A stretch of DNA of 64,000 bases. It comes from Capillimicrobium parvum. Lineage in GTDB: Bacteria > Actinomycetota > Thermoleophilia > Solirubrobacterales > Solirubrobacteraceae. Numbering within the stretch: position 1 is the first letter of the stretch; each line of letters starts with the position of its first letter. The notes under the pieces were generated by a model, which ran no database searches, was not told the origin of the DNA, and was given only the letters and a program-made list of their open reading frames with translations. The stretch spans positions 248,001 through 312,000 of the forward strand of contig NZ_CP087164.1 in the NCBI RefSeq assembly GCF_021172045.1, in the 5' to 3' direction. This document shows, in pieces, positions 7,372-33,193 of the stretch. The position numbers and the translations under genes were made by a program.

Positions 7372-7778
7372 CTCGACTCCTCGACGACCGCGACGGCCAT
7401 GAGCTCGATGAGCGCCTCGTCGTCGTAGAGGCGCGTCACGCCGAACAGCCCGGCGGCGGGATAGCGGCGGCCGAAGTGCTTGTGCCAGAGCGGCCCGAGG
7501 TCGCGCAGCGCCGCCTTGTAGGCGGGCACGTCGGTGACGAAGATCTGCATCGAGATGATGTCCGAGGGCTTGCCGCCGGCGGCGGTCAGCGCGGCGATCA
7601 CGTTGCCGGCCGCGGCGTCGAACTGCTCGGCCATCGTGCTGCCCTGGATCGTGGTGCCGTCGGGGCCGAGCGCGGTCTGGCCGCCGAGCGCGACGTAGCG
7701 CCCGGGCGCCGCGATCACGGCGTGCGCGTAGCCGACCGGCGGCGCGAGGTCGGGTGACGTGACGGTCTCGTGTGCCAT
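7368..7778 (-). CDS. RidA family enamine/imine deaminase (second copy)
   Basis: A 136-residue RidA-fold protein. I start at MAHETVTSPDLAPPVGYAHA, which begins one base after the hydratase stop; the frame stays open for 20 further codons upstream, but those are antisense-like and lack a ribosome site. Family features are YAHAVIAAPGRYVALGGQT, the helix AEQFDAAAGNVIAALTAAGG and the terminal LIELMAVAVVEE. The expected product of a neighbouring 2-aminobenzoyl-CoA reductase is a ring enamine, so a dedicated enamine deaminase here is chemically sensible. Its sequence differs clearly from the RidA at 0.45 kb, so this is not a recent duplication. Confidence 0.88.
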   Translation of the reverse strand: MAHETVTSPDLAPPVGYAHAVIAAPGRYVALGGQTALGPDGTTIQGSTMAEQFDAAAGNVIAALTAAGGKPSDIISMQIFVTDVPAYKAALRDLGPLWHKHFGRRYPAAGLFGVTRLYDDEALIELMAVAVVEESR

Positions 7779-7779
7779 C

Positions 7780-8607: not shown

Positions 8608-9359
8608 GTCTGGATGCCTCCTCCGTCCAGGACCAGCGCCTGGCCGTTGATCGATGCCGCTTCGGGCGAGGCCAGCCACACAACCGCGGCCGCCACCTCG
8701 TGCGGGTCCAGCAGGCGACCGAGCGGCGCCGCGGCGGCCAGAGCGGCCACGCCGTCCTCGGCCGGGCGCCCGGTCCTCTGGGCGATGTGCGCGACCGAGC
8801 GCTGCGTCATCTCCGTGTCGACGTACGTGGGGCACACGGCGTTCGCGCGCACCCCGGTACCGGCCATCTCGGCGGCCGTCGCACGCATCAGGCCCACGGC
8901 GGCATGCTTGGACGCCGTGTACGCGGCGGTGTACGGCGCACCGACCTTCGCCACCGTCGAGGCGACCGTCACGATCGCCCCGTGGTCACGCTCGCGCATG
9001 CCGTCGACGACCGCCCGCGTGCACAGGAACGCCCCGGTCGCGTTGACCGCGAAGTGGCGCTGCCAGCTCTCCAGGCTCGTGCGCGCCAAGGGCGCGCTCT
9101 CCGCGATCCCCGCGTTGTTGACGAGCACGTCGACCGGCCCGATCGCGTGGAACGCTTCGGCGACCTGCGCCTCGTCGGCCACGTCGCAGACGCGCGTCTG
9201 CACCGTCTCGCCGGGCAGGCCGAGCGACGGCGCGAGCTTCGCCAGCGCCGTCTCGTCGCGACCGAGCGCGAACACGCGGTCGCCGAGCGCGGCGAACGCG
9301 CCCGCCGCGGCACGGCCGATCCCTTTGGCCCCCCCGGTCACCACCACGACCCGGCTCAT
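8604..9359 (-). CDS. Short-chain dehydrogenase/reductase, first gene of the flavoenzyme operon
   Basis: A 251-residue classical SDR: the cofactor motif TGGAKGIGR at residues 8-16, NNAG, a catalytic YTASK, and the C-terminal ASINGQALVLDGGGIQT typical of 3-oxoacyl reductase-type members. It probably oxidises or reduces a hydroxy/oxo acyl-CoA intermediate. The ATG is preceded at a good distance by GAGAGG on the minus strand. It heads the operon SDR, crotonase, RidA, dehydrogenase, bifunctional flavoenzyme. The first 24 bases of this gene are found again, exactly, at 26948-26971 beside another catabolic gene (see findings). Confidence 0.92.
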   Translation of the reverse strand: MSRVVVVTGGAKGIGRAAAGAFAALGDRVFALGRDETALAKLAPSLGLPGETVQTRVCDVADEAQVAEAFHAIGPVDVLVNNAGIAESAPLARTSLESWQRHFAVNATGAFLCTRAVVDGMRERDHGAIVTVASTVAKVGAPYTAAYTASKHAAVGLMRATAAEMAGTGVRANAVCPTYVDTEMTQRSVAHIAQRTGRPAEDGVAALAAAAPLGRLLDPHEVAAAVVWLASPEAASINGQALVLDGGGIQT

Positions 9360-9773
9360 TGGGCAACCTCTCGGACCTGACGCCGACCGTAGCTTCGCGC
9401 TGGCCACGGCCCCCGCCGGGTGAAGGCCGGTCGCGCTGTCCCCTGGGAGGGCCGTCGTGCGACCAGCCTCGCCCGGCTGTGTGCTGTACCGCAAGCGGCT
9501 ACAGGACGGAGCCCCGTAGAGGACCAGTCAATGAGGAGCCGCAATCTCTGCGTCGCGGCCACAAGTCCGCCGTTGACCCCGCCGTCCTGCGGGCTGGGGT
9601 GGGGGACTGCCGCGACCACGCGAGCGCCAGAGGCAGCTGCCACGCCATCCGCAGCCTCTCCCGCGCCCGGTGTGGCGTCCTGTCGCGCCTGCGGCACGAC
9701 GGCCACGTCTCCTGTCCCACCCGACGCGGCGCCCTTCGACGGCTCGTCGGACATACAGGTTGACCCAGGGAGC

Positions 9774-9919
9774 CTCATGCGCGGGATGGGTTCCGCAGCG
9801 ACCACATGAGCCAACAGTCTACATGGCAGCCCGGTGGGATGTCGTCTAATTTTTTTGCCGGCCCGTCCCTGGGTCGAGGAGCAGTGGTTCCCACGCCCGC
9901 GGATGGCGCCGCGCGGAAC
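9774..9919 (+). repeat. Duplicated promoter/5'-gene segment, copy 1 (decayed)
   Basis: Aligns along its length, with only small gaps, to 26967-27107. Identical or near-identical blocks are CTCATGCGCGGGAT, a CATGAG-x-CAACA run into TCTACATGGCAGCCCG, TGTCG before the -10, a GAGGAGCAG block and CGCGCGGAAC. In copy 2 the segment is the promoter and first codons of a 3-hydroxyacyl-CoA dehydrogenase. In this copy the GTG start is lost and no dehydrogenase follows, so it is a remnant. Confidence 0.75.
9818..9850 (+). promoter_or_regulatory. Shared catabolic promoter motif, site A
   Basis: TCTACATGGCAGCCCG, six bases, TGTCG, then TCTAAT at the -10 place. Same layout as the sites at 27011, 28634 and 33194. 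The nearest rightward gene is the creatininase-family gene 318 bases downstream, so either there is a long leader or this site no longer serves a gene. Confidence 0.55.
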
Positions 9920-10167
9920 GGGGTCCGAGGCGGCGTCCGGCGCGGCGCGGTTCAGTACTGCGATGGATTGCCGACACCTCGACGTTGGATCTACGGTCTG
10001 GTGCGACCGGAGGGCGCCTGCGCGGCAATCGGTGGCGATCAACCCGCAATGCGGCGTTGTCAAGGGTCCCGGAACACAGCGCCACCCGGGCCGTGTGCGG
10101 CGATAGTCGACAGGACAGCAGACCGACATGTACAGTTTCCGCGGCACGGCACGAGGGAGAGGAACGG

Positions 10168-11028
10168 TTGGGACAACGCGCACGGCGTGACCAGGCCGCA
10201 GGCCGCCCGGATCGGATCGCGGATGACGAGGGTCTGTACTTCGCCAACCGCACGTACGCCGAGGTTGCGCGCATGATCGAGGACCCGCGCCCGGTGGTGT
10301 TGCTGCTGCCGGTGGGGTCGACCGAGCCGCACGGGCCGCACTCGCCCCTGGCCACCGATCCGATCATCTCGGCGGAGATGTGCCTGCGCGTGGCGCGCGC
10401 GCTGCGCGACGACCCGGACGTCCAAGTCTCGATCCTGCCCGAGATCGGCTACGGGGTGACACGATTCACCAAGGCGTGGCCCGGCGCGATCCACATTGAG
10501 GAGGAGACGCTGCTGGCGCTGCTCGTCGACATCTGCGTCTCCTTGGCCCGGCAGGGGCTGGGGCACGTGGTGATCGTCAACAACCACTTCGAGCCCGAGC
10601 ACATCAAGACGCTGCATCGAGCGATGGACGAGGCCGAGCGCCGCACCGGCAACGTCGTCGGCTATCTCGACCTCACCCGCAAGCGCCGCGCCGAGCAGCT
10701 GACCGACGAGGTTCGCGAGGGTGGCAGCCACGCCGGTCGATACGAGACCTCGATCGTGCTCGCAGCGCGGCCCGGGCTCGTCGACGAGCAGGTCATGGCG
10801 GCGCTCGAGCCGATGCCGAAGAACCTCGCCGCCGAGATCGCGCACGGCGCCAAGGACTTCGTCGCCATGGGGCTGCCGAAGGCCTACAACGGCACGCCGG
10901 CCGACGCGACCGTCGATGAGGGTCGGCAGAGCCTCGTCACGCTCACGGACATGCTGACCCAGCAGGTACGGGACCTCGCGGCGGGAACCGGCGGTCGGGA
11001 CACGCCGGGGCTCTACATCCGCGTCTGA
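10168..11028 (+). CDS. Creatininase family amidohydrolase
   Basis: About 286 residues. The family's metal motif is clear near the N-terminus (LLLPVGSTEPHGPHSPLATD), with VIVNNHFEPEHIK (usually NGHGGN-type in creatininase) and GGSHAGRYETSIVLAARPGL supplying further metal ligands. Members hydrolyse cyclic or linear amides such as creatinine or formamido pyrimidines. The start is a TTG preceded by GGGAGAGGAA at good spacing; the frame upstream has no ribosome site and no family similarity, and the first downstream ATG (10273) would cut a conserved strand. It leads an operon with hydantoinase/carboxylase-type subunits, consistent with N-containing ring chemistry. Confidence 0.85.
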   Translation: MGQRARRDQAAGRPDRIADDEGLYFANRTYAEVARMIEDPRPVVLLLPVGSTEPHGPHSPLATDPIISAEMCLRVARALRDDPDVQVSILPEIGYGVTRFTKAWPGAIHIEEETLLALLVDICVSLARQGLGHVVIVNNHFEPEHIKTLHRAMDEAERRTGNVVGYLDLTRKRRAEQLTDEVREGGSHAGRYETSIVLAARPGLVDEQVMAALEPMPKNLAAEIAHGAKDFVAMGLPKAYNGTPADATVDEGRQSLVTLTDMLTQQVRDLAAGTGGRDTPGLYIRV

Positions 11029-11044
11029 CTCAGGAGGGCAACCG

Positions 11045-13222
11045 ATGACAGTCGCCGAACAGGCAGCAGGAGGCGGACAGGGCGCGGCGATCGATCCCGT
11101 CACCTTCGAGATCATTCGCCACAAGCTCCTGCGGGTGACCGACGAGACGATCATCGCCCTCGAGAACGTCTCGGGCTCGCCGATCACCAACGAGGGCCAC
11201 GACATGATGGCCTCGCTCTACCTCCCGGACGGCGGGCTCATGGTGGGCGGCGTCGGGTTCCTGCACCACCTGACCAGCGCTGCCCAGGCGGTCAAGCACA
11301 TCATCGAGAACTTCAGCGACGACCCGGGCATCGACGAGGACGACGTCTACTTCTTCAACGACTCCTACACGGCCGCCCTGCACCCGCCGGACGTGTACAT
11401 GATCTCGCCCATCCACTACGAGGGCGAGCTGACCGGGTTCGTGGCGAACTTCGTCCACGTCACCGACATCGGCGCCGTCGATCCCGGCGGCTTCTCGCCC
11501 AACGCGGTCGACAACTTCCAGGAGGGCTTCCAGACGAAGGGTCTGAAGATCGTCGAGCGCGGCAAGCTGCGCAAGGACGTCGTCGAGACCTTCCTCAACC
11601 TGGTGCGCGACCCGGGCATGACGCAGCTCGATCTCAAGTCGCAGCTGGCCGCCAATCACGTCGCGAAGATGCGGATGAGGCGCATCTACGCCGACTACGG
11701 CGTCGAGACGGTCCGCGCCGTCGCCGACGAGCTCATCAACCAGTCCGAGCGCCTCGTGCGCCGGCGCCTGGGAGAGCTGCCGGACGGAACCTGGCATGTG
11801 CGGGAGTACGTCGACCTCCCCGACGACACCACCTGCCGCGTCGAGCTGGCCGTGACGAAGCGAGACGACACGCTGACCTATGACTTCACTGGGACGAGCC
11901 CGGAGGCGAAGTTCGGGATCAACTGCTGTTACTGGGCGACGTGGGGGGCGATGTTCGCGCCGATCTTCCCGCTGCTGGCCTGGGACGTGACGTGGAACGA
12001 GGGCGTGACGCGGGCCCTCGAGCTCGTCGCGCCCGAGGGCTCGGTCGTCAACTGCCGTCGCCCGGCGCCGATCTCGATCGCCACGGTGGGCACCGTCCAG
12101 ATCGTCAACAACCTGTCGACGCTGGCGCTGTCGAAGATGTTCGGCGCCAGCGAGCGCTACCGCGACCGCGCCACAGCGGTCTGGCACGGGAGCCACGCCC
12201 ACGTCGAGACGCACGGCATCGCGCCCGACGGCAGCTTCTTCATCGCGCCGCTGACCGACACCTTCGGCGGCTCAGGAGGCGCGCGTGCGTTCGCCGACGG
12301 CGTCGACATCGGAGGGGAGATCCCGAACGTCGTCTCACGCTGGGCCAACGCCGAGAGCCAGGAGCTCAACACCCCGCTCGTCTACCTCTTCCGGCGGGTG
12401 GTCGTGGACTCTGGCGGGCCGGGCAAGTTCCGGGGCGGCGTGTGCCACGAGTACGCATTCGCCCCGACCGGCGTCGGCGGCGCCGAGCTCGGCGTGGTCC
12501 TGTTCGGCAAGGGCACGCGTGCGCCGATGAGCCTCGGGATGTTCGGCGGCTATCCGGGATCGAACGTGCGCTACAGCACCTTCCGGGACACCAACGCGGC
12601 CGATCTGCCGGACAGCCTGCAGGAGATCGTCGCCGGCGAGCGCGTGGACCAGTTCTGGGGCAGCGTCGACCTCGGCGTGACGGACATCCAGTACGTACGA
12701 TTCATGGGCGGCGGCGGCTACGGCGATCCGCTGGACCGCGAACCGGACCGGGTGCGCGACGACGTCGAGCGCGGCCTCGTCTCGGCGGAGGCGGCTCACG
12801 ACGTCTACGGCGTGGTACTCGCCGGCGCGGCGGTCGACGCCGCCGCTACGGAGCGGCGGCGGCTGGCGATGCGCGCCGCGCGCATCGGGCAGGAGGTGGA
12901 GCCGGCGCTGGGGACGCGCGCCGACGTGCCCTTCAGCGGGCGCCCGCTCGGCGAGTACCTTCAGCAGACGGCGACCGGAGCGACGCAGTGCACCTGGTGC
13001 GCTGCCGAGGTGGCGCCCGCCGGCGAGATGTGGAAGCGCCGCGCGACGATCGTGCGCTCGCCGATGGCCAGGGCGGGCGCCTTCCGCTCCGAGGATCCCG
13101 ACTTCGCGCTGCTCGAATGCTGCTGCCCGACCTGTGGCACGCTGCTCGACACTGAGGTGGTATGGCGGGACGACCCCCCGCTCGACGATTCCGTGACGTC
13201 CTGGCCTGGACAGGAGAGCTGA
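11045..13222 (+). CDS. hyuB: Hydantoinase B/oxoprolinase-family subunit with C-terminal zinc ribbon
   Basis: A 725-residue protein, longer than the ~560 usual for HyuB. Residues ~15-570 are the HyuB/ATP-dependent carboxylase fold (DPVTFEIIRHKLLRVTDET, VYFFNDSYTAALHPPDVYMI, later MGGGGYGDPLDREP). The extra C-terminus (~610-725) has two Cys pairs, CTWC and CPTC (preceded by CC), forming a likely zinc ribbon similar in layout to small subunits of acetone/acetophenone carboxylases. The ATG has AGGAGGG six bases ahead. It is followed after two bases by hyuA. With HyuA it could be an ATP-dependent hydrolase of a cyclic amide or a carboxylase; sequence alone does not decide. Confidence 0.87.
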   Translation: MTVAEQAAGGGQGAAIDPVTFEIIRHKLLRVTDETIIALENVSGSPITNEGHDMMASLYLPDGGLMVGGVGFLHHLTSAAQAVKHIIENFSDDPGIDEDDVYFFNDSYTAALHPPDVYMISPIHYEGELTGFVANFVHVTDIGAVDPGGFSPNAVDNFQEGFQTKGLKIVERGKLRKDVVETFLNLVRDPGMTQLDLKSQLAANHVAKMRMRRIYADYGVETVRAVADELINQSERLVRRRLGELPDGTWHVREYVDLPDDTTCRVELAVTKRDDTLTYDFTGTSPEAKFGINCCYWATWGAMFAPIFPLLAWDVTWNEGVTRALELVAPEGSVVNCRRPAPISIATVGTVQIVNNLSTLALSKMFGASERYRDRATAVWHGSHAHVETHGIAPDGSFFIAPLTDTFGGSGGARAFADGVDIGGEIPNVVSRWANAESQELNTPLVYLFRRVVVDSGGPGKFRGGVCHEYAFAPTGVGGAELGVVLFGKGTRAPMSLGMFGGYPGSNVRYSTFRDTNAADLPDSLQEIVAGERVDQFWGSVDLGVTDIQYVRFMGGGGYGDPLDREPDRVRDDVERGLVSAEAAHDVYGVVLAGAAVDAAATERRRLAMRAARIGQEVEPALGTRADVPFSGRPLGEYLQQTATGATQCTWCAAEVAPAGEMWKRRATIVRSPMARAGAFRSEDPDFALLECCCPTCGTLLDTEVVWRDDPPLDDSVTSWPGQES

Positions 13223-13224
13223 CG

Positions 13225-15390
13225 ATGGCCGACCACACTCCCGACCCCCAGTACGTCGTCGGCATCGACATCGGCGGCACGGGCACCGACTGCGTCGTGG
13301 TGGACGCCGAGGGGACGGTCACGCTGGGCAAGGCGTTCTCGACGCCGCCTGACTTCGCGACCGGCATCCTCAATGCGGTCGCGAGCGCGGCACGCGAGCT
13401 GGGCATCGATCGCGCGGATCTGCTGTCGCGGACGACGCTGTTCCTGCACAGCACCACGGTCGCCGAGAACGCGGTCGTCGACGGGACCCTGGCCACGGCG
13501 GGACTGCTCGTCACGGGAGGGTTCGAGGACACGCTGTTCGCGATGCGCGGCGGGTACGGCCGCTGGTCGGGGCTCACGGAGGAGGGCAAGCGCAACCCCA
13601 TCGACACCGACAAGCCGGAGCCGGTCGTGCCGCGCAGCCTCATCCGAGGCATCCGCGGGCGCACGGACGCCCAGGGCAACGTCCGGGTGCCGGTGGATCC
13701 AGCCCAGGTCGAGGCCGCGCTGCGCAGCCTCCTCGACGCCGGCGCCGAGTCGATCGGCGTGAGCCTCATCTGGTCGGTGACCAACCCGGAGACCGAGGAG
13801 GCGGTCGCCGAGGTCGTGCGACGGGTCTGTCCGGACGCGTTCTTCACCGCCTCACACGAGATCGCGCCGATCGTCGGCGAGTACGAGCGGACCTCCACCG
13901 TGGCGCTGAACGCGCGCCTCGGCCCGGTGGTGCACCGATACCTCGACGCCCTCGCCTCGGAGCTGCGCGACGAAGGCTTCGCCGGCGTGCTGCTCGTCAT
14001 GCAGGCGTACGGCGGCCTCCTGCCGTTCGACAAGGCGGCGCGCGCGCCGGTCGGCATGATCGAGTCCGGCCCGGTCTCGGGTCTCGTCGGCTCCAAGAGC
14101 CTGGGCGAGCTCATCGGCGCCAAGAACATCATCGCCGCCGACATGGGCGGCACCACGTTCAAGGTCGGCGTCGTGCGTGACAGCCTGATCGAGTACCAGC
14201 GCGAGTCGATGGTACTCCGCTACCACTACGCGCTGCCGAAGATGGACATCGTCTCCCTCGGTCTGGCGGGGGGCAGCATCATCTCGATCGATCCGCGCAC
14301 CGGCACTCCGCAGATCGGGCCGCAGAGCGCCGGGTCGTACCCCGGGCCGGTGGTCTACCAGCATGGCGGGACCGAGCCGACGATCGTCGATGTGGATGCG
14401 CTGCTGGGCTACCTCAACGCCGACTACTTCTTCGGCGGCCGAGAGTCGCTGGACGTCGACCTGGCCAGGCGCGCGTTCGCGGAGAAGGTCGCCAAGCCGA
14501 TGGGCATGGACGAGATGGAGGCGGCGGCGGCGATGTACAAGCTGGCCAACAGCCTCTTCCACGACCTGCTGCACAAGACGACCGTCCAGCGGGGCCTGGA
14601 CCCGCGCAACTTCGCGCTGTTCTCGTTCGGCGGCACGGCCGGCATGCACGTGGGCGCCTACGCGGAAGAGCTCGGCACACCGCAGATCGTGGTTCCGTAC
14701 TCGGCGTCGGTGCATGGCGCGTTCGGTCTCATCACGTCGGACATCGCCCACGAAGATCAGGTCACCCAGCCCGTCCAGCACCCGGCTGACGCCGCGGAGG
14801 TGGCCGGCATCTACGAGCAGCTCGAGCAGCGGATGCTCGACCAGCTCGGGGACGAGGGTTTCACCGGAGATGCCGTGCACCTCCAGCGGTCGGTCGACAT
14901 GCGCTACCGGCGACAGGTCCACATCCTCACCGTGCCGGTGGACACCGACGGGCCGCTCGACGCCGCGACGCTCGAGCGCGCCGTCGATCGCTTCGAGAGC
15001 CTCTACCGGGAGAAGTACGGGCAGGAGTCGGCTTATCGCGAGGCGGGCATCGAGATGGTCAGCTTCCGCATGCGCGGCGAGGGCCGCGTGCGCAAGCCGG
15101 ACTTCCGTCACGCCGACGTCGGCGACAGTGCGGCCGAGCACGCGATCGTCAAGCGCGTGGAGGCCTGGGTGCCCATCGCCGATGAGATGCGGGAGATCGA
15201 CGGCTACGACTTCGAGCGTCTCGAGCCCGGCAACGCTTTCGAGGGTCCGGCCGTGGTGTGGACGCCTATCACGACGGTCGTGGTCGCCGAGGGCCAGCAG
15301 GCGCGCGTCGACGAGTACAAGAACCTTGTCATCGCGACGTCGATCGGACGGCGCGGTGCGGTCGCCGCGGCAGCTGGCGCGAGCGCTTGA
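13225..15390 (+). CDS. hyuA: Hydantoinase A/oxoprolinase-family ATP-binding subunit
   Basis: A 721-residue HyuA-type subunit of the actin-like ATPase fold: VVGIDIGGTGTDCVVVDAEG at the N-terminus (phosphate loop 1), TLFLHSTTVAENAVV, and the second nucleotide segment IIAADMGGTTFKVGVVRDS, then FSFGGTAGMHVGAYAEELG. The ATG at 13225 follows GGAGAGCTGACG; an upstream in-frame start lies in the hyuB end and is unlikely. Together with HyuB it couples ATP cleavage to ring opening or to carboxylation. Neighbours (creatininase family, aryl-CoA ligase) suggest the product is an aromatic acid later made into a CoA ester. Confidence 0.9.
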   Translation: MADHTPDPQYVVGIDIGGTGTDCVVVDAEGTVTLGKAFSTPPDFATGILNAVASAARELGIDRADLLSRTTLFLHSTTVAENAVVDGTLATAGLLVTGGFEDTLFAMRGGYGRWSGLTEEGKRNPIDTDKPEPVVPRSLIRGIRGRTDAQGNVRVPVDPAQVEAALRSLLDAGAESIGVSLIWSVTNPETEEAVAEVVRRVCPDAFFTASHEIAPIVGEYERTSTVALNARLGPVVHRYLDALASELRDEGFAGVLLVMQAYGGLLPFDKAARAPVGMIESGPVSGLVGSKSLGELIGAKNIIAADMGGTTFKVGVVRDSLIEYQRESMVLRYHYALPKMDIVSLGLAGGSIISIDPRTGTPQIGPQSAGSYPGPVVYQHGGTEPTIVDVDALLGYLNADYFFGGRESLDVDLARRAFAEKVAKPMGMDEMEAAAAMYKLANSLFHDLLHKTTVQRGLDPRNFALFSFGGTAGMHVGAYAEELGTPQIVVPYSASVHGAFGLITSDIAHEDQVTQPVQHPADAAEVAGIYEQLEQRMLDQLGDEGFTGDAVHLQRSVDMRYRRQVHILTVPVDTDGPLDAATLERAVDRFESLYREKYGQESAYREAGIEMVSFRMRGEGRVRKPDFRHADVGDSAAEHAIVKRVEAWVPIADEMREIDGYDFERLEPGNAFEGPAVVWTPITTVVVAEGQQARVDEYKNLVIATSIGRRGAVAAAAGASA

Positions 15391-15397
15391 GCGTGGG

Positions 15398-16978
15398 ATG
15401 CCGCTGGAGCTCGAAGACATCCCGCCGGAGTTCAACCTCGCGAGCTGGGTGATCGATCGTCAGCTCGACGAGGGACGTGGCCAGCGCACCGCGCTCGTGA
15501 GCGGCGACACGACGGTCAGCTACGCCGACCTCGCCGCGCTCACCAACCGCGCCGGGCATGTCATCCGCGCCGCCGGCGTCCGCCCAGGCGACAGGGTGCT
15601 CCTGGCGCTCTCCGACGGCTTTGAGTTCGTTGCCGCCTGGTACGCCACGATCAAGATCGGCGCGGTCACCGCCGAGGCCTACACATTCCTCCAAGCCAAG
15701 GACATCGCGTACTACCTGAGGTACTCGCGCGCCCGTCTGGTGGTTGCCGACGCGACCACGATTGAACGGGTCCGCGAGGCGGCGGCCGACGCTCACGTGG
15801 ACGCGGTCGTGCTCGTGGTGGGCGTTGAAGAGACGGAGCTGCGGGCGGGCGAGGTGGCGTGGGAGGCCGCGGTCCGTGAGGCGCCCGACACGCTCGAGCC
15901 CGAGCCGACCCTCCGCGACGACATCGCGATCTGGAAGTTCACGACAGGCAGCACCGGCGCGCCGAAGGCCGCCGTCCATACGCACAGCGCGCCGCGCCTG
16001 AGCGCGGAGTGGTACGGCCAGCAGGTGCTCGGGCTGACCGCCGACGACGTGGTCCTGCCGGTCCCGAAGTTGTTCTTCGGCTACGCGCGGGACCTGGCCA
16101 CGCTCTTTCCGTTCGCGGTCGGCGGCGCGGGCATCGTGTTCCCCGAGCGCTCCACCGCCGAGCGGATCTTCGACCTCGTCGAGCGCCATCGCCCGACCGT
16201 CCTCGCCACGGTCCCGACGATGATGCAGCAGATGCTCGACCTACCGGGAGCAGACGAGCACGATCTCTCGGCGCTGCGGTTCTGCACGTCCGCCGGCGAG
16301 GCGCTTCCTGCGCCGCTGCTCGGCCGCTGGATGGAGCGCTTCGGCGTCGAGGTGCTCGACGGCCTCGGCTCCTCGGAGGTCTACCACGTCTACATCTCGC
16401 AAGCGCCCGGGCGGATGCGTCCGGGGACCATCGGGCGCCTCGTTCCCGGCTACACCGCGCGGCTCGTCGGCGCCGACGGCGCCGACGTCGGGGATGGCGA
16501 GGACGGCGAGCTCTGGGTGCAGGGGGCGACGGCCGCGCTCATGTACTGGGCCGACCGTCCCAAGAGCCTGCGGACGTTCGCGGGCGATGTCGTGCACACG
16601 GGAGATCTCCTGCGCCGCGACGAGGACGGCTACTTCACGTACCGCGGTCGCGCCGACGACCTACTGAAGGTCGGGGGCATCTGGGTGGCGCCGGCCGAGG
16701 TCGAGCAGTGCCTGCTCGACCACGCGGCGGTCGCCGAGGCGGCGGTGGCCGGCGTCGCGCGCGACGGACTCGTCCTGACGTGCGCCTACGTCGTTGCGCG
16801 ACCGGGCCACGACCCTGGCGAGGCGCTGGCCGATGCGCTGCGCGAACATGTCAAGCGCACGCTCTCGCCGCACAAGTATCCGCGCGAGATCGTCTTTCTG
16901 GCGGACCTGCCGAAGACCGGGTCCGGCAAGATCGATCGTGCCGCCATCCGTGGCCTCGACGGAGTGACGGAGAGCTGA
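15398..16978 (+). CDS. Benzoate-CoA ligase family AMP-forming acyl-CoA synthetase
   Basis: A 526-residue ANL-family enzyme. The P-loop IWKFTTGSTGAPKAAVHTH at ~185, the aryl-specific helix LPVPKLFFGYARDLATLFPF, DGLGSSEVYHVYIS at ~325, the hinge YRGRADDLLKVGGIWVAP and the C-terminal PKTGSGKIDRAA with its adenylation Lys are all present. The YARDL region and LFFGYA are typical of benzoate/aminobenzoate-CoA ligases. It is the last gene of the creatininase-HyuBA operon and is the best candidate in the window to make the aryl-CoA used by the two-domain flavoenzyme at 3.8-6.2 kb. Start ATG chosen just after the hyuA stop; a TTG overlap at 15386 is also possible. Confidence 0.9.
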   Translation: MPLELEDIPPEFNLASWVIDRQLDEGRGQRTALVSGDTTVSYADLAALTNRAGHVIRAAGVRPGDRVLLALSDGFEFVAAWYATIKIGAVTAEAYTFLQAKDIAYYLRYSRARLVVADATTIERVREAAADAHVDAVVLVVGVEETELRAGEVAWEAAVREAPDTLEPEPTLRDDIAIWKFTTGSTGAPKAAVHTHSAPRLSAEWYGQQVLGLTADDVVLPVPKLFFGYARDLATLFPFAVGGAGIVFPERSTAERIFDLVERHRPTVLATVPTMMQQMLDLPGADEHDLSALRFCTSAGEALPAPLLGRWMERFGVEVLDGLGSSEVYHVYISQAPGRMRPGTIGRLVPGYTARLVGADGADVGDGEDGELWVQGATAALMYWADRPKSLRTFAGDVVHTGDLLRRDEDGYFTYRGRADDLLKVGGIWVAPAEVEQCLLDHAAVAEAAVAGVARDGLVLTCAYVVARPGHDPGEALADALREHVKRTLSPHKYPREIVFLADLPKTGSGKIDRAAIRGLDGVTES

Positions 16979-17048
16979 TAGGCGGGCCGCTGCGGTTACT
17001 TCACATGACGTCCGTGGCCCATGGTACTTCGCAACCTGGAAGTCCGTA

Positions 17049-17097
17049 CAAGTGTCGTTAGAAACACTTGACACTGCGCCGCGGTGGCCTGTAAACT
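17049..17097 (+). promoter_or_regulatory. Promoter with inverted repeat over the -35 box
   Basis: TTGACA (17068-17073) is followed after 16-18 bases by TGTAAACT, a near-consensus housekeeping promoter. The -35 overlaps the right arm of a perfect 7-base inverted repeat, CAAGTGT (17049-17055) and ACACTTG (17064-17070), spaced by eight bases, a natural repressor site. It reads toward the MOSC gene. Confidence 0.6.
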
Positions 17098-17101
17098 ACG
17101 G

Positions 17102-17130
17102 CCGGTTCGGGCTTTGAGGTACCGAACCGG
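17102..17130 (+). promoter_or_regulatory. Leader hairpin or operator
   Basis: CCGGTTCGG (17102-17110) pairs perfectly with CCGAACCGG (17122-17130) across an 11-base loop, immediately after the expected transcription start. It could be an operator or a 5'-leader stem of the MOSC transcript. Confidence 0.45.
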
Positions 17131-17204
17131 TGAGGGGAGAGGGTGGCAGGGTGGAGTCCGCGAGGACTCGGCGAATAGCAACGATCCCGTATGGAGAGGA
17201 CACG

Positions 17205-17921: not shown

Positions 17922-17981
17922 TGATCCCGATGCGTCGTACGTGCGATGTGTGCGCCGGCAGCTTCGACGGAAGGAGAGGGC

Positions 17982-19037: not shown

Positions 19038-19093
19038 CGCGGTTCACAACAATCATTGGGTCATCGATGTCGAGTTCGTGGGGGTGGGGTCAC

Positions 19094-20311: not shown

Positions 20312-20352
20312 ACGATGTCTCCAGATGACGAGCGAGCGCGCGGCGCATCACT

Positions 20353-21849
20353 GTGATCGAGCTGCGCAACATCTCGAAGACCTTCGCGAGCCGCCCCGTT
20401 CTTCAGGGGGTAGATCTGACACTGGTGCCGGGCGAAGTCCACGGCCTGGTGGGCGAGAACGGCTCGGGCAAGTCGACCCTGATCAAGATCCTCTCGGGCT
20501 TCCACGCCCCCGACGATGGGGCCCAGATATTGGCTGCTGGCCGGCCGCTCGAGCTGCCGATCAGCCCGCATGACGCGAATGCCGCCGGCATGCGGTTCGT
20601 CCATCAGGATCTCGGCCTCTTCGAGGGCGGGTCAGTGCTCGAGAACATGACCGTCGGCCGCTACGACCTGAACAGGTTCTGGCGGATCGACTGGCGCGAG
20701 GAACGAAGGCGCGCGGCGCGGCTGCTCGGGGAGTTCGGCGTGGCGCTCGATCTCGACGCTCGCGTGGGGAGCCTGAGTTACGTGGAGCGGACGCTTCTGG
20801 TGGTGGTCCGAGCGCTTGGCCAGGAAGCTGGCGGAGGGACGATCGTGCTCGACGAGCCGACCGCTCCGCTGGATTCGGAGAGCGCCGGCCGGCTGCTGTC
20901 GACCCTGAGACGGGTTGCAGATCGCGGCAGCTCCGTTCTCTTCGTGTCCCATAGGCTCGGTGAGGTGCTCTCGATCAGCGACCGCGTGACGGTGCTCCGT
21001 GACGGCCGGGTGGTGGCACAGGACCTTGCCGGGTCCTTCACGGAGGACTCGCTGATCGAGGCGATGCTCGGTGTGCCTATGACGGAGATGTACCCTGAGG
21101 TGAGCACGGCCCAGGGGACTGAGGTGGTCCTTGCATTGAACGGGTTCGCGGGAGACGTCTTGCGCCGCAGCGTGTCTCTGGAGTTGCGATCCGGCGAGAT
21201 CGTCGGCGTGACCGGGTTGGCCGCCATGGGTCACGATGATCTGCCGTACCTCATGTTCGGGGACGAGGAGACTCGCGTGGGCGCGCTCGCCGTCGGCGAT
21301 CGGACCATCGGCGCTGCCGATCTCTCGCCCCAGGTGGCCATGCGGGCCGGGCTCGGGCTCGTGCCTGCGAACCGTCTGAGCGACGGTGGCGCCCAGGCGA
21401 TGACCGCCACGGAGAACATCACATCAGTGACCCTCGGGAAGTACATGCGCAAAGGCACGCTGCGGCTCAGGCGCGAGCGCCGAGCTGTGGCCGGTCTGAT
21501 GGCGCAGTTCGAGATCCGTCCGCCGGTGCCCGAACTGCCGCTCGCGTCGTTCAGCGGGGGCAACCAGCAGAAGGCGATTCTCGCGAAGTGGTTGAGTCGG
21601 AACCCCTACGCGCTCATCCTCCACGAGCCGACGCAGGGAGTCGACGTGGGGGCCAAGCGCCAGATATTCAGGCTGATCGCTGATGCAGCGCGTGCCGGAA
21701 CTGCGTTCTTGTACGTGAGTTCCGAGCACGAGGACATTGCGCACCTCTGCACGCGGGCGGTGATCTTCCGCGATCGCGCCGTGGTGCGCGAGCTCGCTGG
21801 TCCGGCGCTGACGTACGAGAACCTGATGTCGGAGTGTCTGAGAGCATGA
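20353..21849 (+). CDS. Sugar-type ABC transporter ATP-binding protein (two nucleotide domains)
   Basis: A 498-residue RbsA/XylG-type double ATPase. Domain 1 has a full Walker A (VGENGSGKSTLIKILSGF) and Walker B (TIVLDEPTAPLD). Its signature motif reads GSLSYVERTLLVVVRAL instead of LS-x-G-Q-x-Q, an unusual loss. Domain 2 has a degenerate Walker A region (GLAAMGHDDLPYLMFG), normal for the class, but a good signature SFSGGNQQKAILAKWL and Walker B (YALILHEPTQGVDVG). It powers import with the permease, whose ATG follows one base after this gene's TGA. The GTG start is the only sensible one before the first strand. Confidence 0.9.
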   Translation: MIELRNISKTFASRPVLQGVDLTLVPGEVHGLVGENGSGKSTLIKILSGFHAPDDGAQILAAGRPLELPISPHDANAAGMRFVHQDLGLFEGGSVLENMTVGRYDLNRFWRIDWREERRRAARLLGEFGVALDLDARVGSLSYVERTLLVVVRALGQEAGGGTIVLDEPTAPLDSESAGRLLSTLRRVADRGSSVLFVSHRLGEVLSISDRVTVLRDGRVVAQDLAGSFTEDSLIEAMLGVPMTEMYPEVSTAQGTEVVLALNGFAGDVLRRSVSLELRSGEIVGVTGLAAMGHDDLPYLMFGDEETRVGALAVGDRTIGAADLSPQVAMRAGLGLVPANRLSDGGAQAMTATENITSVTLGKYMRKGTLRLRRERRAVAGLMAQFEIRPPVPELPLASFSGGNQQKAILAKWLSRNPYALILHEPTQGVDVGAKRQIFRLIADAARAGTAFLYVSSEHEDIAHLCTRAVIFRDRAVVRELAGPALTYENLMSECLRA

Positions 21850-21850
21850 G

Positions 21851-22885
21851 ATGAGGGAAGGAACGAAGATCGCAAGCACGACCGAGCGGCCACCCGGTAA
21901 CCCGGAGGAATCCGGTCGGCGCAACCGCGGGTCATGGCAACGACTCAAGGCGGAGGACATCGCCAACCGGTACGGTCTCGTCGGGGCCTGGATCGTGCTC
22001 ATCGCGGTGTTCGGCGCACTCGAGCCCGACAAGTTCCTGACCCTCTCCAACTTCCAGGACATCTTCAGTTCGCAAGCCGTTCTCGTAGTCCTGAGCATCG
22101 GGGTCCTGCCCGCCCTCGCGGTGGGTGCCATCGACCTATCGATCGCGGGAACGATGGGGCTCGCCCTTGTGATCGTCGGCTGGCTCAACGTCTTGCATGG
22201 ATGGCCGATCGCGCTCGCGGTGCTGGTCGCGCTTGCCGCAGGCGTCATCGTCGGCGGCATCAACGCACTCGTGATCGTCAGGCTCGGGATCGACTCGATC
22301 GTCGCGACGCTCGGGATGGGCACGTTGCTTGCCGGCATCGCCATCGGCATCAACAACCTGGCGATCAGCGGCATCTCGACGAGCCTGATCGACGCGGCCC
22401 GCACGAACGTCGGCGGGCTCCAACTCGTCTTCTTCTATGCGCTGGCGCTCGCTCTCGTGCTGTGGTACGTCTTCCGGTACACGCCGCTCGGCCGCTACCT
22501 GTTCTTCATCGGCGGGGGCGGCGGCGTGGCGCGGCTGTCGGGTATCCCGGTCGACCGCGTCCGTGCCGGGTCCCTCGTGTTCTCAGGACTCGCCAGCGCG
22601 TTCAGCGGCGTCCTCCTCGCCGGGGTCCTCGGTGCCGCGGATCCCACGGTCGGCCCCTCGTATCTCCTGCCCGCGCTAGCCGGCGCTTTCCTCGGCGCCA
22701 CCGCGATCGTGCCGGGCCGATTCAATGTCTGGGGAACGGTCATCGCCGTGTACTTCCTCGCCACGGGCATCACCGGTCTGGAGCTGCTCGGTCTGTCCGG
22801 ATACATCGAGCAGGTCTTCTATGGGGGCTCGCTCGTGCTGGCCGTGGTCCTCTCCCGGCTCGCCAGCCGGCGAACTCAGAGCTGA
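21851..22885 (+). CDS. Sugar-type ABC transporter permease (RbsC-like)
   Basis: A 344-residue membrane protein with about nine to ten hydrophobic spans after a ~38-residue polar N-terminus. The BPD_transp_2 family marks are VGAIDLSIAGTMGLALVIVG, GGINALVIVRLGIDSIVATLG and VFRYTPLGRYLFFIGGG with the downstream cytoplasmic loop R-x-S-G-I-P-V-D contacting the ATPase. It forms the channel of the importer. It is the last gene of the rightward run and converges on the first PaaX-type regulator. Confidence 0.9.
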   Translation: MREGTKIASTTERPPGNPEESGRRNRGSWQRLKAEDIANRYGLVGAWIVLIAVFGALEPDKFLTLSNFQDIFSSQAVLVVLSIGVLPALAVGAIDLSIAGTMGLALVIVGWLNVLHGWPIALAVLVALAAGVIVGGINALVIVRLGIDSIVATLGMGTLLAGIAIGINNLAISGISTSLIDAARTNVGGLQLVFFYALALALVLWYVFRYTPLGRYLFFIGGGGGVARLSGIPVDRVRAGSLVFSGLASAFSGVLLAGVLGAADPTVGPSYLLPALAGAFLGATAIVPGRFNVWGTVIAVYFLATGITGLELLGLSGYIEQVFYGGSLVLAVVLSRLASRRTQS

Positions 22886-22909
22886 GCACAACGTGGCCTG
22901 TATGAAGCC

Positions 22910-22935
22910 AGCGTGTCCGGCGAGCGGGTCACGCT
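22910..22935. terminator. Weak hairpin between convergent genes
   Basis: AGCGTG (22910-22915) can pair with CACGCT (22930-22935) across 14 bases in the 58-base gap between the permease and the PaaX gene. Short stem, large loop and no T-run, so support is positional only. Confidence 0.25.
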
Positions 22936-22943
22936 CCGGCTGA

Positions 22944-23876
22944 TCAGATCATCGTGCTGCCGCTGCTGCCGCGGTTGGATTCACGACTCGTCGTGACTGC
23001 ATCGAAATGACGTTGCGCGGGCTCGGCCAGCGCCGGGTATAACGCGTCGAAGACCTCCACCGCCGCTACGCTGTGCCCCAGCTCAGGCATCAGCTCGTCC
23101 GGCAGTTCCGGGTCAAGGGATGGAAAAGCCCTGAACGTGTGCACCAGGCGAGTCCGGAGCAGAAAGCTCTCGTGGTCTGTCAGCCGGGCCCGCGCCCTAG
23201 GAGCGAGGTAGACGGAGAACTCCTCGGCAAACGACAGGTAGCGCGCCGCCAGAGCATCCAGGTCCCAGGCTCGGCGGGCGAACCGCTCGAAGTCAAATGA
23301 TTTCGCGGGGCGGCTCAACAATACGGCGACGTCCTGGTACAGCCCAAGTGAAGACGCGAGCGCCGCGACCTCGTCTTCGCGGTCATGGGGCGAGATCCAG
23401 ATGCCGTCCTGAAGCGAGCCGAAACCGAGAAATCGCAAACGATGGGTGAAACGCGTCTTCTCGAGACGCTGATTGTCGGGGATCGTTTGCCACACGACGG
23501 TCCACTCTTCGACCGGTCGAACGCGCCGCCGGAGGGAGAAGATCCGCCGATCACCCTCCGACAGCAGAGCCATCGACCGCGGCGTGAGCGCGTAGTGAAC
23601 GAGTCGGCCATCCTTGACGCGGGTGAGCAGTTGTCGCCGGACCATGCGGGTGAGAGCGACTCGCGCGGCGCCGGTCGAGAAGCCGAAATCATCGAGGATC
23701 TGGACTAGTCCTCCGGACCACACCGTGTCTCGACGGGACTTGACGTACGCGCCGAGCAGTGTGATGACAAGATCCTGGGGCTGAGGGACGAACCAGCTCG
23801 AACCCGTGGCAAAGCCGAGCCCGGTCTTGTTCATGGATGCGTTGATCTGGGCCACGGCTCGGTGCACCGTCGACAT
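22944..23876 (-). CDS. PaaX family transcriptional repressor 1
   Basis: Up to 310 residues. After a short leader comes the PaaX DNA-binding helix-turn-helix (PQDLVITLLGAYVKSRRDTV, then LVQILDDFGFSTGAARVALT), the central segment RRIFSLRRRVRPVEEWTVVW, and the C-terminal PaaX domain (LRTRLVHTFRAFPSLDPELP). PaaX represses phenylacetate genes and is released by phenylacetyl-CoA; relatives sense other aryl-CoA thioesters. An ATG at 23834 is an alternative start, neither having a good ribosome site. It is divergent from the P450 operon at 24680 and is paralogous to the PaaX gene at 32.2 kb, both sharing the motif F-G-F-S-T and L-R-F-L-G-F-G-S. Confidence 0.88.
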   Translation of the reverse strand: MSTVHRAVAQINASMNKTGLGFATGSSWFVPQPQDLVITLLGAYVKSRRDTVWSGGLVQILDDFGFSTGAARVALTRMVRRQLLTRVKDGRLVHYALTPRSMALLSEGDRRIFSLRRRVRPVEEWTVVWQTIPDNQRLEKTRFTHRLRFLGFGSLQDGIWISPHDREDEVAALASSLGLYQDVAVLLSRPAKSFDFERFARRAWDLDALAARYLSFAEEFSVYLAPRARARLTDHESFLLRTRLVHTFRAFPSLDPELPDELMPELGHSVAAVEVFDALYPALAEPAQRHFDAVTTSRESNRGSSGSTMI

Positions 23877-23890
23877 TGCGTGACGCGGTG

Positions 23891-23920
23891 GGACCTGCCA
23901 CGCGTCGCTTTGTCAGGTCC
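23891..23920. promoter_or_regulatory. Inverted repeat upstream of PaaX 1
   Basis: GGACCTG (23891-23897) and CAGGTCC (23914-23920) form a perfect 7-base inverted repeat spaced by 16 bases, 15 bases in front of the PaaX start. A TATTCT box on the minus strand follows it upstream. This is a candidate autoregulatory operator. Confidence 0.45.
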
Positions 23921-23957
23921 AGAATAGATGATTGGTGCGGTGGGCCGGGTGGTCCAG

Positions 23958-24185
23958 TCGACGCCTGAGGCCGAGCTGACCGGCCATCTTTCCTATAACG
24001 GGGGCGGTATGCCGCTGGGCTCCAGCGTCCGCAACGGCACGGGCCACGAGACGGTCCAGACGGATCTCGGGCCGGTCGAGGTCCCCACCCCGCGTGATGG
24101 CAACAGTAGCCCGTCCCCGAGCGCGAGCTCGTGGTTAAGGGCCAGACACGTCTGGCCGGCCCCGATGACCGCGTTTCCGCCTCGA
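23958..24185 (+). pseudogene. Decayed IS256/Mutator-family transposase fragment
   Basis: Frame 1 (23958-24104) reads AELTGHLSYNGG, then SVRNGTGHETVQTDLGPVEV and TPRDGN, matching the N-terminal part of IS256-type transposases (E-x-T-x-H-L-x-Y, N-x-R-N-G-T, K-T-V-x-T-x-x-G-P-V-E, V-P-R-D). The match continues in another frame from 24116 (PERELVVKGQTRLAGPDD), as expected for the next stretch of the same family. So the gene is truncated at both ends and frameshifted. No terminal inverted repeats were seen. Confidence 0.7.
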
Positions 24186-24679
24186 TCCACCATTTCGGCA
24201 GTTCGGCCCGTCCTTTGACGTGGTCAACCGCATCCGTGCGCTCCCCGCCGTCTGACTGCGCCTGGCGGCCCCCGACACCACCGCTTGGTCCACCTCGGCG
24301 ACCGGCCGCGATAACTGCCCGGGAACACCTCCGATCTGCCCCACGCATGCACCGATCCAGCGTCCCCCTCGATCACAGTTCCGAGATCGACCCCGGACCA
24401 CTTGCGACGCCGCGGCACCACATTTCGCAACCGGTCGATCGGTCGAGCTGGTTGCGTGGGGTCTGGGATGGGTGCCGTCTCATCGGAGGGCCGGTGCGCA
24501 GCGGGGCCCGCTTCCTCTGAGTGACGTAACGGGCGCACACGCCGCCCGTCAAAATTGTTCACACGTCTCTCGGCAGCAGTGTATTATTTTAGGGCTGGCT
24601 CGGCGTGGTGGGCGCAGCACGCGCTCCCTTGCAAGAGCAGCTCTCGCTCGTGGTAGTCACATCCGAAGAAGGCGGGCAA
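24186..24679. other. Non-coding stretch upstream of the P450 operon
   Basis: About 490 bases with no gene I can support. Open frames on both strands lack family features. It contains a promoter-like element at 24556-24590 and otherwise shows nothing. Proximity to the transposase fragment suggests it is scarred DNA. Confidence 0.5.
24556..24590 (+). promoter_or_regulatory. Shared catabolic promoter motif, site E (weak)
   Basis: TCAAAA upstream (24549-24554), then TGTTCAC in place of TCTRCAY, and TGTATTATTTT running into the -10. It shares the TCAAAA, the CA-x-AC part and the spacing with site D, but the central GGCAGC block is displaced. It points to the P450 gene. Confidence 0.35.
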
Positions 24680-25903
24680 ATGAAACCCTCGGACTTCCCC
24701 CGAGACGCAAAGTTCCACGATCCGACGACCCCTCCGTTTCGGGACGACGAAGGCGTCCATCACATCTTCAGCTACGCGGATGTGATGTCGGTCCTCATGA
24801 ATCGCGACGAGGCCTTCTCGCGGGATCCCGCGCCGTGGCTCCCCGGAACGGGACCCGTCCACATGGCGTTCGACTTCATGTGGATGATCGAGCCTTTCAC
24901 CCTGGACGGCGAGGCGGGTCGACACGACCCGCTGCGTCGGGTCGTCGAGCCGTGGTTCAAGCTTCGGGCCGTCGGGACCATGGAGCCGATCATCCGCGAC
25001 ATCATGGTCCAGGGCATCAACGACGTCGTCGCGAAGGGCACGGGCGAGGTCAACGTCGCCACAGAGCTCTGCTCGCGGCTCTCGATGCGCGTGATCTGCC
25101 GGCTGACCGGCATCGAGTTCGAGCGCGAGCAGTGGATGCGCGAGAAGCTCGACGAGTTCAATCAGGCGACCTGGGACAACTGTCCGCCGCAGTGGGACGT
25201 CCAGGCCTACTTCTGGCAGCTGATCGCCAAGCGGCTCGCCCGGCCGCAGGACGAGCTCCTCGACATCCTCGTCCAGGCTTGGACCGAGGGCGCCATCGAC
25301 GATCACGAGCTCATCGGCTACCTCTACGGGTTCAGCGCGGCGGGCACTGACACCACCGGGGCGAGCCTCGCGAACACCTTCACCTATCTCGCGGAGTTCG
25401 ACCTCCTCGACTACGCCCGGAGCATCCAGGGCGACGAGGAGGCCGTCGGGATGCTCATCGAGGAGATCCTGCGCTTCGGGACGCCGTTCCCGATGAAGCC
25501 ACTCTACGTTTGCAAGGACTCGCAGTTCGGGGATCTGAAGGTGCCGGCCGAGAGCGTGCTGGGCGTGTGGTTCGCTGCGGCCAACCGGGACGAGGCCGTA
25601 AACGGCGGAGACGCGGACGGTGCCGACCCGAACCTCTTCGACCCCAAGCGCTCGCCGAACAAGCACATCGCGCTGGGCCGCGGCAAGCACTACTGCCTCG
25701 GCAAGGACCTCGCGAAGCTCGAGATGAAGATCCTGCTCGAGGAGTCGCTGCGGCGGCTGCCGGAGTTGCAGATGGATGCGACCAAGCCCTTCCGGCGGTA
25801 CGGGGGCATCGTCGACAGCGTTACCGACGCACACTTCACGTTCGACCAGGAGCAGGCGGAGCGGATCAAGGCAGGCGAACGCGAGCCGACGCCGGTGGCA
25901 TGA
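24680..25903 (+). CDS. Cytochrome P450
   Basis: A 407-residue soluble bacterial P450. The C-helix segment GRHDPLRRVVEPWF, the I-helix oxygen-activation motif AAGTDTTGASLANTF, the K-helix E-x-x-R (EEILRFG) and the heme loop ALGRGKHYCLGKDLAKLEMK with the Cys ligand are all present; the usual Phe at the start of the heme loop is Leu. P450s of this type hydroxylate small hydrophobic substrates using ferredoxin partners, and none is encoded nearby. Start ATG is preceded by GGCGGGCAA; the frame also opens at a GTG 75 bases upstream, close to the -10. Its stop overlaps the next start (ATGA). Confidence 0.92.
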   Translation: MKPSDFPRDAKFHDPTTPPFRDDEGVHHIFSYADVMSVLMNRDEAFSRDPAPWLPGTGPVHMAFDFMWMIEPFTLDGEAGRHDPLRRVVEPWFKLRAVGTMEPIIRDIMVQGINDVVAKGTGEVNVATELCSRLSMRVICRLTGIEFEREQWMREKLDEFNQATWDNCPPQWDVQAYFWQLIAKRLARPQDELLDILVQAWTEGAIDDHELIGYLYGFSAAGTDTTGASLANTFTYLAEFDLLDYARSIQGDEEAVGMLIEEILRFGTPFPMKPLYVCKDSQFGDLKVPAESVLGVWFAAANRDEAVNGGDADGADPNLFDPKRSPNKHIALGRGKHYCLGKDLAKLEMKILLEESLRRLPELQMDATKPFRRYGGIVDSVTDAHFTFDQEQAERIKAGEREPTPVA

Positions 25904-26808
25904 CGTACGTCAACGACGGCAGCGACCGGCCGCCGCGCTTGGGCGTCTATCAGGCGGAGTGGGGGCTCTGGGGGCTCGGCACCGCAGGCCGGGAGTGGAC
26001 GTGGGAGGAGAAGGTCGACCGGTGCCGCGAGGCGGGTTTCGAGGGGGTGCTCGTCTTCGGCGCGCCGGCCGCCGGCGCCGAGCCCGACGGCTGGCATGAG
26101 CTCATGCGAGACCGTGAGCTGATGCTCGGCTACGGCACGTTCGCCGCCACCGCCGAGGGGATCGAGCAGGAGGTCGCGCGCGCGCGCGAGTTGGGCGCAG
26201 CGTTCGTCAATGCGCAGATGCGCGACTATTTCCTGACCGGGAGTGCGGCGACGGACTTCCTGAAGACCGCCGTGCGCATGGGGCGGGACGCTGGCGTGCC
26301 GTTTTTCGTCGAGACGCACCGCGCCTGCCTCACGCAGGACCTGATCCGCACCGTCGAGTACGTCCATGCCGTGCCGGACATGGTGATGTCCCTCGATCTG
26401 TCCCATTTCGTCGTCTCCGGTCAGGTACCGACGGTCGATGACGCGTCCGGACCGATCTCGAGCCAGATCGAGGACGCCCTCGCCCCGCTTCTCGAACGGA
26501 CCGCGAGCCTCCACGGTCGGGTGTCCAACGGCCAGGCCGTCCAGGTCGACATCGGACGTGACGGCGACCATCCGGCGGCGACCGACTTCAAGCGCTGGTG
26601 GCGCCGGGGCATGGAGCACTGGCTCGCAAACGCGGGGCCCGGCGATGTCCTGCCGTTCGTCACCGAGCTCGGCCCGCCGCCCGTCTCGATCACGATCCGG
26701 TCGGCCGACGGCGGGGCGGAGGCCGAGATATCGGATCGCTGGGAGCAGTCGCTCGTGCTCATGCGGGTGGCGAGGGCCATCTGGGAGGAAGTGGCCGCGG
26801 GCGCCTAA
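25900..26808 (+). CDS. Sugar phosphate isomerase/epimerase-like TIM-barrel protein
   Basis: About 302 residues of the xylose-isomerase-like/AP-endonuclease-2 fold: RLGVYQAEWGLWGLG, a helix WEEKVDRCREAGFEGVLVFG, then the metal-site strands VPFFVETHRACLTQDLIRTV, MVMSLDLSHFVVSG and LHGRVSNGQAVQVDIG. Glu, Asp/His and His ligands are where the family binds a divalent metal. Members isomerise or lyse sugars and ring compounds such as myo-inositol derivatives or hydroxypyruvate, and the true substrate is not clear. The 4-base overlap with the P450 means tight coupling and perhaps a two-step conversion. Confidence 0.8.
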   Translation: MTYVNDGSDRPPRLGVYQAEWGLWGLGTAGREWTWEEKVDRCREAGFEGVLVFGAPAAGAEPDGWHELMRDRELMLGYGTFAATAEGIEQEVARARELGAAFVNAQMRDYFLTGSAATDFLKTAVRMGRDAGVPFFVETHRACLTQDLIRTVEYVHAVPDMVMSLDLSHFVVSGQVPTVDDASGPISSQIEDALAPLLERTASLHGRVSNGQAVQVDIGRDGDHPAATDFKRWWRRGMEHWLANAGPGDVLPFVTELGPPPVSITIRSADGGAEAEISDRWEQSLVLMRVARAIWEEVAAGA

Positions 26809-26947
26809 CAGCCACGGGCCCGCGCCGAACGTGGCGCAACCGTCATCGGTGTCAGCCTGACGCACGCACCCGCGCAGCGTCTCGGCCTTATCCCGAACTC
26901 CTCGGCCATCGACGTGATCGCCGGCATTGCGACTCATGGCCCCTCGA

Positions 26948-26971
26948 GGTCACCACCACGACCCGGCTCAT
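26948..26971 (-). pseudogene. Remnant of the 5' end of an SDR gene
   Basis: Twenty-four bases identical to the start of the SDR at 9336-9359, in the same orientation (encoding MSRVVVVT on the minus strand). A weaker match (TGGCCCC block) extends it to about 26940. Downstream in that direction there is no SDR frame. It joins copy 2 of the duplicated promoter at the shared bases CTCAT. Confidence 0.6.
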
Positions 26972-27107
26972 GCGCGGGATTCGCTGCCCCTGGTGCTCAT
27001 GAGACAACACTCTACATGGCAGCCCGCTGACGTGTCGTATAAAATCAATGGCGTGTCCCAGGTGGAGGAGCAGGGCCCCACGGCGACGCCGGCCGCCCGC
27101 GCGGAAC
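26967..27107 (+). repeat. Duplicated promoter/5'-gene segment, copy 2 (active)
   Basis: Counterpart of 9774-9919. Here the segment carries a working-looking promoter and the start of the 3-hydroxyacyl-CoA dehydrogenase gene. Together with the SDR remnant next to it, it shows that the ancestral arrangement was SDR, promoter and dehydrogenase back to back. Confidence 0.75.
27011..27043 (+). promoter_or_regulatory. Shared catabolic promoter motif, site B
   Basis: TCTACATGGCAGCCCG, six bases, TGTCG and then TATAAA as the -10 box. The expected transcription start falls at about 27050, three bases before the GTG, so the mRNA is probably leaderless or nearly so. Confidence 0.65.
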
Positions 27108-28612: not shown

Positions 28613-28633
28613 ATGAGGAGCCGTCATCATTCG

Positions 28634-33048: not shown

Positions 33049-33193
33049 CGCCTCTCCGTCCGCGAGGGTCCGGACCCGGGCGCTCACGTGCGCCACCGGG
33101 CTCGATGCGCGATGGTAGAGGCGCGGGCGGCGCCTCGCGCCCCGGGGTCTTCACGTCGGGCCCGGGCGTGCCGCGCGACCATCAGATCAAAAG

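Follow-up and report, generated by a model that had tools for sequence, protein, structure and literature searches.

Probable duplication of a divergent promoter-operator and later IS110 insertion within a predicted aromatic-acid degradation cluster of Capillimicrobium parvum

Why do two junctions in the genome of Capillimicrobium parvum, each with a different complete gene, share promoter DNA and the first bases of an SDR gene? The question arises in a stretch of 64,000 nucleotides (contig NZ_CP087164.1, positions 248,001 to 312,000 of the forward strand), here called the window and numbered from its first letter. As proposed earlier, an SDR dehydrogenase is intact at locus 1 (8604-9359, minus strand) and a PaaH-like 3-hydroxyacyl-CoA dehydrogenase at locus 2 (27053-28612, plus strand), both assigned by Pfam/NCBIfam matches. 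The original prediction held that a divergent pair of these genes had been duplicated, that each copy had then lost a different partner, and that the two resulting "islands" have a shared origin and perhaps a shared regulon. The analysis described here makes it probable that the divergent promoter-operator of a single cluster was duplicated and that an IS110-family element was later inserted at locus 1, the order of these events being our reconstruction.

The proposed alignment of 9774-9919 with 26967-27107 proved to be real and somewhat longer, reaching about 9949 and 27142: positions 9774-9949 and 26967-27142 are 71.6% identical over 183 columns (blastn, E 2.4e-16), and under full statistics their local score of 88 stays far above background, whereas 500 dinucleotide shuffles reached no more than 34 and 2000 random window pairs no more than 48. 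The 24 exact bases of the SDR start were also recovered (9336-9359 and 26948-26971, 24/24 identical; the latter an SDR 5' remnant on the minus strand), and the match there reaches 35 bp at 91%. At locus 2 the SDR start abuts the repeat, whereas at locus 1 a 417-bp insertion (9357-9773) lies between the two. The right part of the locus 1 copy (9850-9949, plus strand) aligns as a 5' leader remnant of the dehydrogenase that has lost the start codon (score 47 versus a shuffle maximum of 38). No third copy was found in the whole single-contig 5.95-Mb genome, leaving two copies only, and a DNA search for this junction across further genomes of the family returned only GC-rich chance pieces. The promoter segments of the two loci, P1 and P2, are mutually closest (31/40, versus at most 27/40 to nine relatives), so the duplicated segment appears to be lineage-specific; since the copies are only 71% alike, the duplication would be old. 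Self-comparison of the window also revealed internal repeats elsewhere, at 56571-56951 and 57811-57973 (73% over 259 columns and 89% over 55 bp).

Relatives carry the intact divergent SDR/3-hydroxyacyl-CoA dehydrogenase pair whose presence had been suggested as a check. In genome G377 the two genes stand back to back in a compact arrangement, about 80 bp apart, and the dehydrogenase side continues with an amidohydrolase on the opposite strand, then creatininase and HyuB. The creatininase-HyuB segment shares 84.8% DNA identity with window positions 10217-12307, and among 399 genomes of the class a creatininase of >58% identity occurs in G377 only. Locus 1 of the window shows the gene order of G377, except that the dehydrogenase and the amidohydrolase are missing. 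In four further genomes (G222, G249, G286, and G214) a thiolase is the first gene of the divergent operon and the dehydrogenase follows it, while in G032 two genes (3 kb) lie between SDR and dehydrogenase and in L028 a GntR-like regulator is divergent from the SDR. These arrangements support an ancestral divergent SDR/dehydrogenase pair. As the genes now found after locus 1 follow the dehydrogenase in G377, locus 1 has probably lost the dehydrogenase, which persists at locus 2 together with the copied promoter.

How the two copies came about can be explained in several ways. The core of the repeat is a 36-bp palindromic operator (consensus ATAsTcgACA-N16-TGTcgAsTAT) present at seven or more places in the cluster, and this might suggest that the similarity is that of a shared operator sequence alone, with no duplication; such an explanation is highly improbable, because the flanks beyond the operator include the coding starts of both genes and, with the operator excluded, the left 40 bp, the right 100 bp, and the SDR start each scored above all 5000 shuffles (p<=0.0002), whereas the DNA around five further operator sites of the window did not match beyond shuffles in the same test. 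That the whole divergent pair was duplicated and each locus then lost one partner, as first proposed, agrees with the intact pair in relatives and with the remnant of each partner; the comparison with G377 favours a divergent ancestor and a dehydrogenase lost at locus 1, and the duplication is supported too. The symmetry of the loss does not fare as well: at locus 2 no residual SDR similarity was detected beyond 24-35 bp and nothing is recognisable in 26809-26936, while a complete gene in decay would be expected to lose its similarity gradually, in the manner of the promoter flanks. Because the match stops so abruptly, a complete second SDR need never have existed and the copy may have been truncated from the outset, which makes the full version unlikely.

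It has also to be considered that two related clusters merged by recombination at P, the segment from creatininase-Hyu to PaaX1 having entered between SDR and dehydrogenase with a P of its own. The two PaaX regulators of the cluster belong to different old subgroups in the tree, and creatininase-HyuB is 80-90% alike to its G377 counterpart as compared with about 70% for the SDR operon, both of which would fit a merger. We nevertheless regard it as unlikely, since the closeness of P1 to P2 and the fully identical SDR start indicate copying inside the lineage. The tree ruled out an origin of PaaX1 and PaaX2 in one shared duplication. The difference between their subgroups suggests that the cluster was in part assembled from separate sources, and a merger may have included the duplication.

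Under the preferred reading, a duplication of the promoter-operator segment within one cluster, the ancestor would have had SDR and dehydrogenase back to back around P, and a segment reaching from the SDR start through P to the dehydrogenase leader would have become two copies, about 17 kb apart. After the duplication, locus 1 would have lost the dehydrogenase except for its leader, while locus 2 would have kept the dehydrogenase, its promoter, and 24-35 bp of the SDR. An IS110-family element would likewise have arrived after the duplication, before or after the loss of the dehydrogenase; it would have entered locus 1 at the CT core that overlaps the start codon of the SDR and then have shrunk by decay to 417 bp. 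The intermediate arrangement is carried by no relative examined.

The insertion was overlooked by the original prediction, as was the operator itself. The segment 9357-9773 (plus strand) separates the SDR from its promoter at locus 1, whereas P and the SDR start are close neighbours in relatives and adjoin at locus 2. Its left end, with a bridge-RNA region from 9357 to about 9590, was aligned with four IS110 elements; it is 75-76% identical to left ends in G234 and 72-75% to further left ends in G133, G386, G398, and G380. The first ~190 bp match two G234 IS110 left ends at 75% (E 3e-27 and 1e-28), and beside one of these lies a DEDD_Tnp_IS110 transposase (L183:10257-11609, with PF01548 at 3e-33 and PF02371). 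The donor loop CAATGAG matches the left-end tip CTCATTG, and in G386 loop and tip have changed together (CTATGAG/CTCATAG). CT cores stand at both junctions of the relic (9355-9356 and 9774-9775), and at locus 2 CCCGG-CT-CATGCGCGGG, with its CT at 26967-26968, corresponds to the site before insertion. As locus 2 preserves this empty site, the IS110 insertion would have followed the duplication. No tblastn match to a recombinase was obtained in 9357-9773, so the segment is assigned only as a deleted relic of the IS110 family and not as a complete element. Its last 183 bp (9591-9773) gave no match to IS110 or the examined loci except a weak 49-bp GC-rich one. An ordinary intergenic leader, a TIR element, and a structured RNA had been considered for 9360-9773 and were displaced by IS110 after the G234 match; Rfam had nothing at the junction, with two tRNAs elsewhere in the window. 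Searches for the left end gave no DNA match in plasmids, those of viral contigs no transposase relative, and 23 plasmids carry transposases of <60% identity.

Read outwards, the left end presents a purine-rich SD-like stretch followed by ATG-AGC (GAGAGGTTGCCCAATGAGC at the SDR). Comparison of starts places the present SDR start codon inside this end, and it appears that the SDR now uses a ribosome-binding site and an ATG taken over from the element. In eight related copies examined in detail, a long frame or an annotated gene opens at the tip ATG-AGC. The tips of the two G234 copies and of the one in G398 lead into a DUF6052 gene, a reading frame of at least 284 aa, and a gene that looks glgB-like by eye. 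Similarly, in five Streptomyces plasmid records with four different target genes (L219, L220, L222, L223, and L224), the annotated neighbour gene begins exactly at the tip ATG, which is always 240 bp from the transposase start. Tips in G133 and G386 open frames of only 20 and 14 aa, and no clear gene was seen at the tip ATG of the copies in L212-L216. From these observations we tentatively raise the possibility that a subgroup of IS110 elements hits ATG/GTG-AGC starts and that the SD and ATG of its left tip restore the start, so that insertion would be near-neutral, the tip having here become a permanent leader of a catabolic operon. Left ends that offer a tip SD and ATG-AGC to a neighbour gene are found at 9357-9773, L183:11843, L205, L207, and L219-L224. 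One G234 copy (L183:10243-11848) lies between a PaaK-like gene and the DUF6052 gene, before a monooxygenase, and its flanks suggest an original GTG-AGC start that overlapped the PaaK stop.

The operator was traced from a 40-bp block that is common to nine relatives upstream of the SDR, with invariant spacing. A PWM built from these nine blocks alone ranked P1 (9814-9849), which would serve the SDR operon, first in the window (36.8) and P2 (27007-27042) second (33.8). Four more intergenic sites scored at least 21.6, with shuffled windows at no more than 5.1: 10103-10138 upstream of the creatininase-HyuB-HyuA genes, 17064-17099 upstream of a MOSC gene, 24554-24589 upstream of a cytochrome P450, and 33190-33225 between PaaX2 and a TPP-enzyme gene. 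A second matrix, built from the window sites, added 28630-28665 before the PaaK-like ligase (28689-30044), which brings the palindrome to seven places. A whole-genome scan with one degenerate pattern returned cluster sites and one site elsewhere (G000:C1:3776853-3776888, L211:3354-3389), which precedes the gene of a putative ABC transporter solute-binding protein. On the minus strand, TAGACT (locus 1) and TAGAGT (locus 2) inside the operator likely represent the SDR -10. On the plus strand of locus 2, TATAAA about 10 bp before the dehydrogenase GTG (27053) is a candidate -10, and its locus 1 counterpart has drifted to TCTAAT, as would be expected of a promoter without its gene; the creatininase has its own operator site at 10103. 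Contrary to the original prediction, P1 is not a decayed promoter, being the best match of the relatives-only matrix in the window; the drift is confined to the -10 of its dehydrogenase side.

The genes around these sites point to a single pathway. Downstream of the SDR, the minus-strand operon (3803-8589), whose order relatives keep, encodes in turn an enoyl-CoA hydratase, RidA, an acyl-CoA dehydrogenase, and a fused flavin monooxygenase-OYE enzyme, the assignments resting on Pfam/NCBIfam matches. The fused enzyme exceeded the cut-off of NF006101 (bifunctional salicylyl-CoA 5-hydroxylase/oxidoreductase; 1182.9 versus 1078 bits), and its architecture is shared by 2-aminobenzoyl-CoA monooxygenase/reductases. 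The stretch between the repeat copies encodes a creatininase-family protein and hydantoinases/oxoprolinases B and A (10168-15390, plus strand, by domain matches), an AMP-dependent acyl/aryl-CoA ligase (15398-16978, plus strand; 71-74% DNA identity to counterparts in G249 and G286), MOSC, an ABC transporter, PaaX1, the P450, and a TIM-barrel protein. The second copy is followed by the PaaH-like dehydrogenase, the PaaK-like ligase, an alcohol dehydrogenase, PaaX2, and the TPP enzyme. Judged from gene content, this is a cluster for CoA-dependent degradation of an aromatic acid, predicted to be of the 2-aminobenzoyl-CoA/salicylyl-CoA type. The notion of two islands has therefore to be given up, as the aryl-CoA-ligase-like gene at 15398, PaaX1, and operator sites lie between the copies. 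With sites before creatininase, MOSC, P450, PaaK, and PaaX2/TPP, the supposed islands become one cluster, and the shared regulon is well supported; the seven sites very likely form one regulon.

Both regulators (PaaX1, 22944-23876, and PaaX2, 32203-33096, minus strand) match PaaX, PaaX_M, and PaaX_C, and PaaX2 also matched a PDB chain that bears the name repressor of phenylacetic acid degradation (E 3e-19). All 10 loci whose PaaX is at least 43% identical carried the operator, as did 5 of 84 others, which include short contigs; the loci are related to one another, and the five in the second group showed no close PaaX within the examined stretch. Most likely, the palindrome of P works as an operator for the PaaX-family repressors of the cluster, and an acyl-CoA of the pathway would release them, a proposal drawn from a co-occurrence that is confounded by kinship.

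If this history is correct, a catabolic cluster has been rearranged and its regulation kept: the switch was copied, each copy retained one partner, and the regulon stays tied together by the operator that its sites share. This operator sequence was absent from the literature searched, and it makes PaaX control of such clusters directly testable. In addition, the IS110 relic, with its internal empty-site control, would exemplify insertion at a start codon that preserves translation, which may explain the persistence of such elements.

IS900 is likewise a member of the IS110 family. The relic resembles IS621, also of this family (PMC11208160), in the DEDD/Transposase_20 recombinase of related copies, the long non-coding left end, the CT core, and a donor loop that matches the element tip, and differs from it in being a 417-bp copy without a recombinase. 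IS900 reportedly targets translation-initiation signals (Doran et al. 1997, cited in PMC8141618), which is a further likeness; descriptions of IS900 have it express a hed ORF of its own, whereas here the end of the element carries an SD-ATG that points outwards into the target gene. Start-codon targeting is thus not new, but the re-supply of ribosome-binding site and ATG may be.

MeqR2 of Arthrobacter sp. Rue61a is said to respond to anthraniloyl-CoA. Nothing direct on a PaaX operator in such aromatic clusters was found in the literature searched. In the same strain, PaaX relatives (ARUE_113p00160/00240) are encoded with a 2-aminobenzoyl-CoA monooxygenase/reductase pathway (PMC3534580), a likeness of gene content. 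In E. coli, PaaX recognises the long palindrome TGATTC-N27-GAATCA at the divergent paaZ/paaABCDEFGHIJK operons (PMC9493321); half-sites of this type are absent from the seven operator sites listed here, which would represent a different class if PaaX binds them. The two systems have in common PaaX-family genes beside a CoA-dependent aromatic pathway, divergent operons, and a long-span palindrome, whereas in the window the half-sites and spacing differ, the enzymes are of the aminobenzoyl/salicylyl-CoA type, and the switch is present twice.
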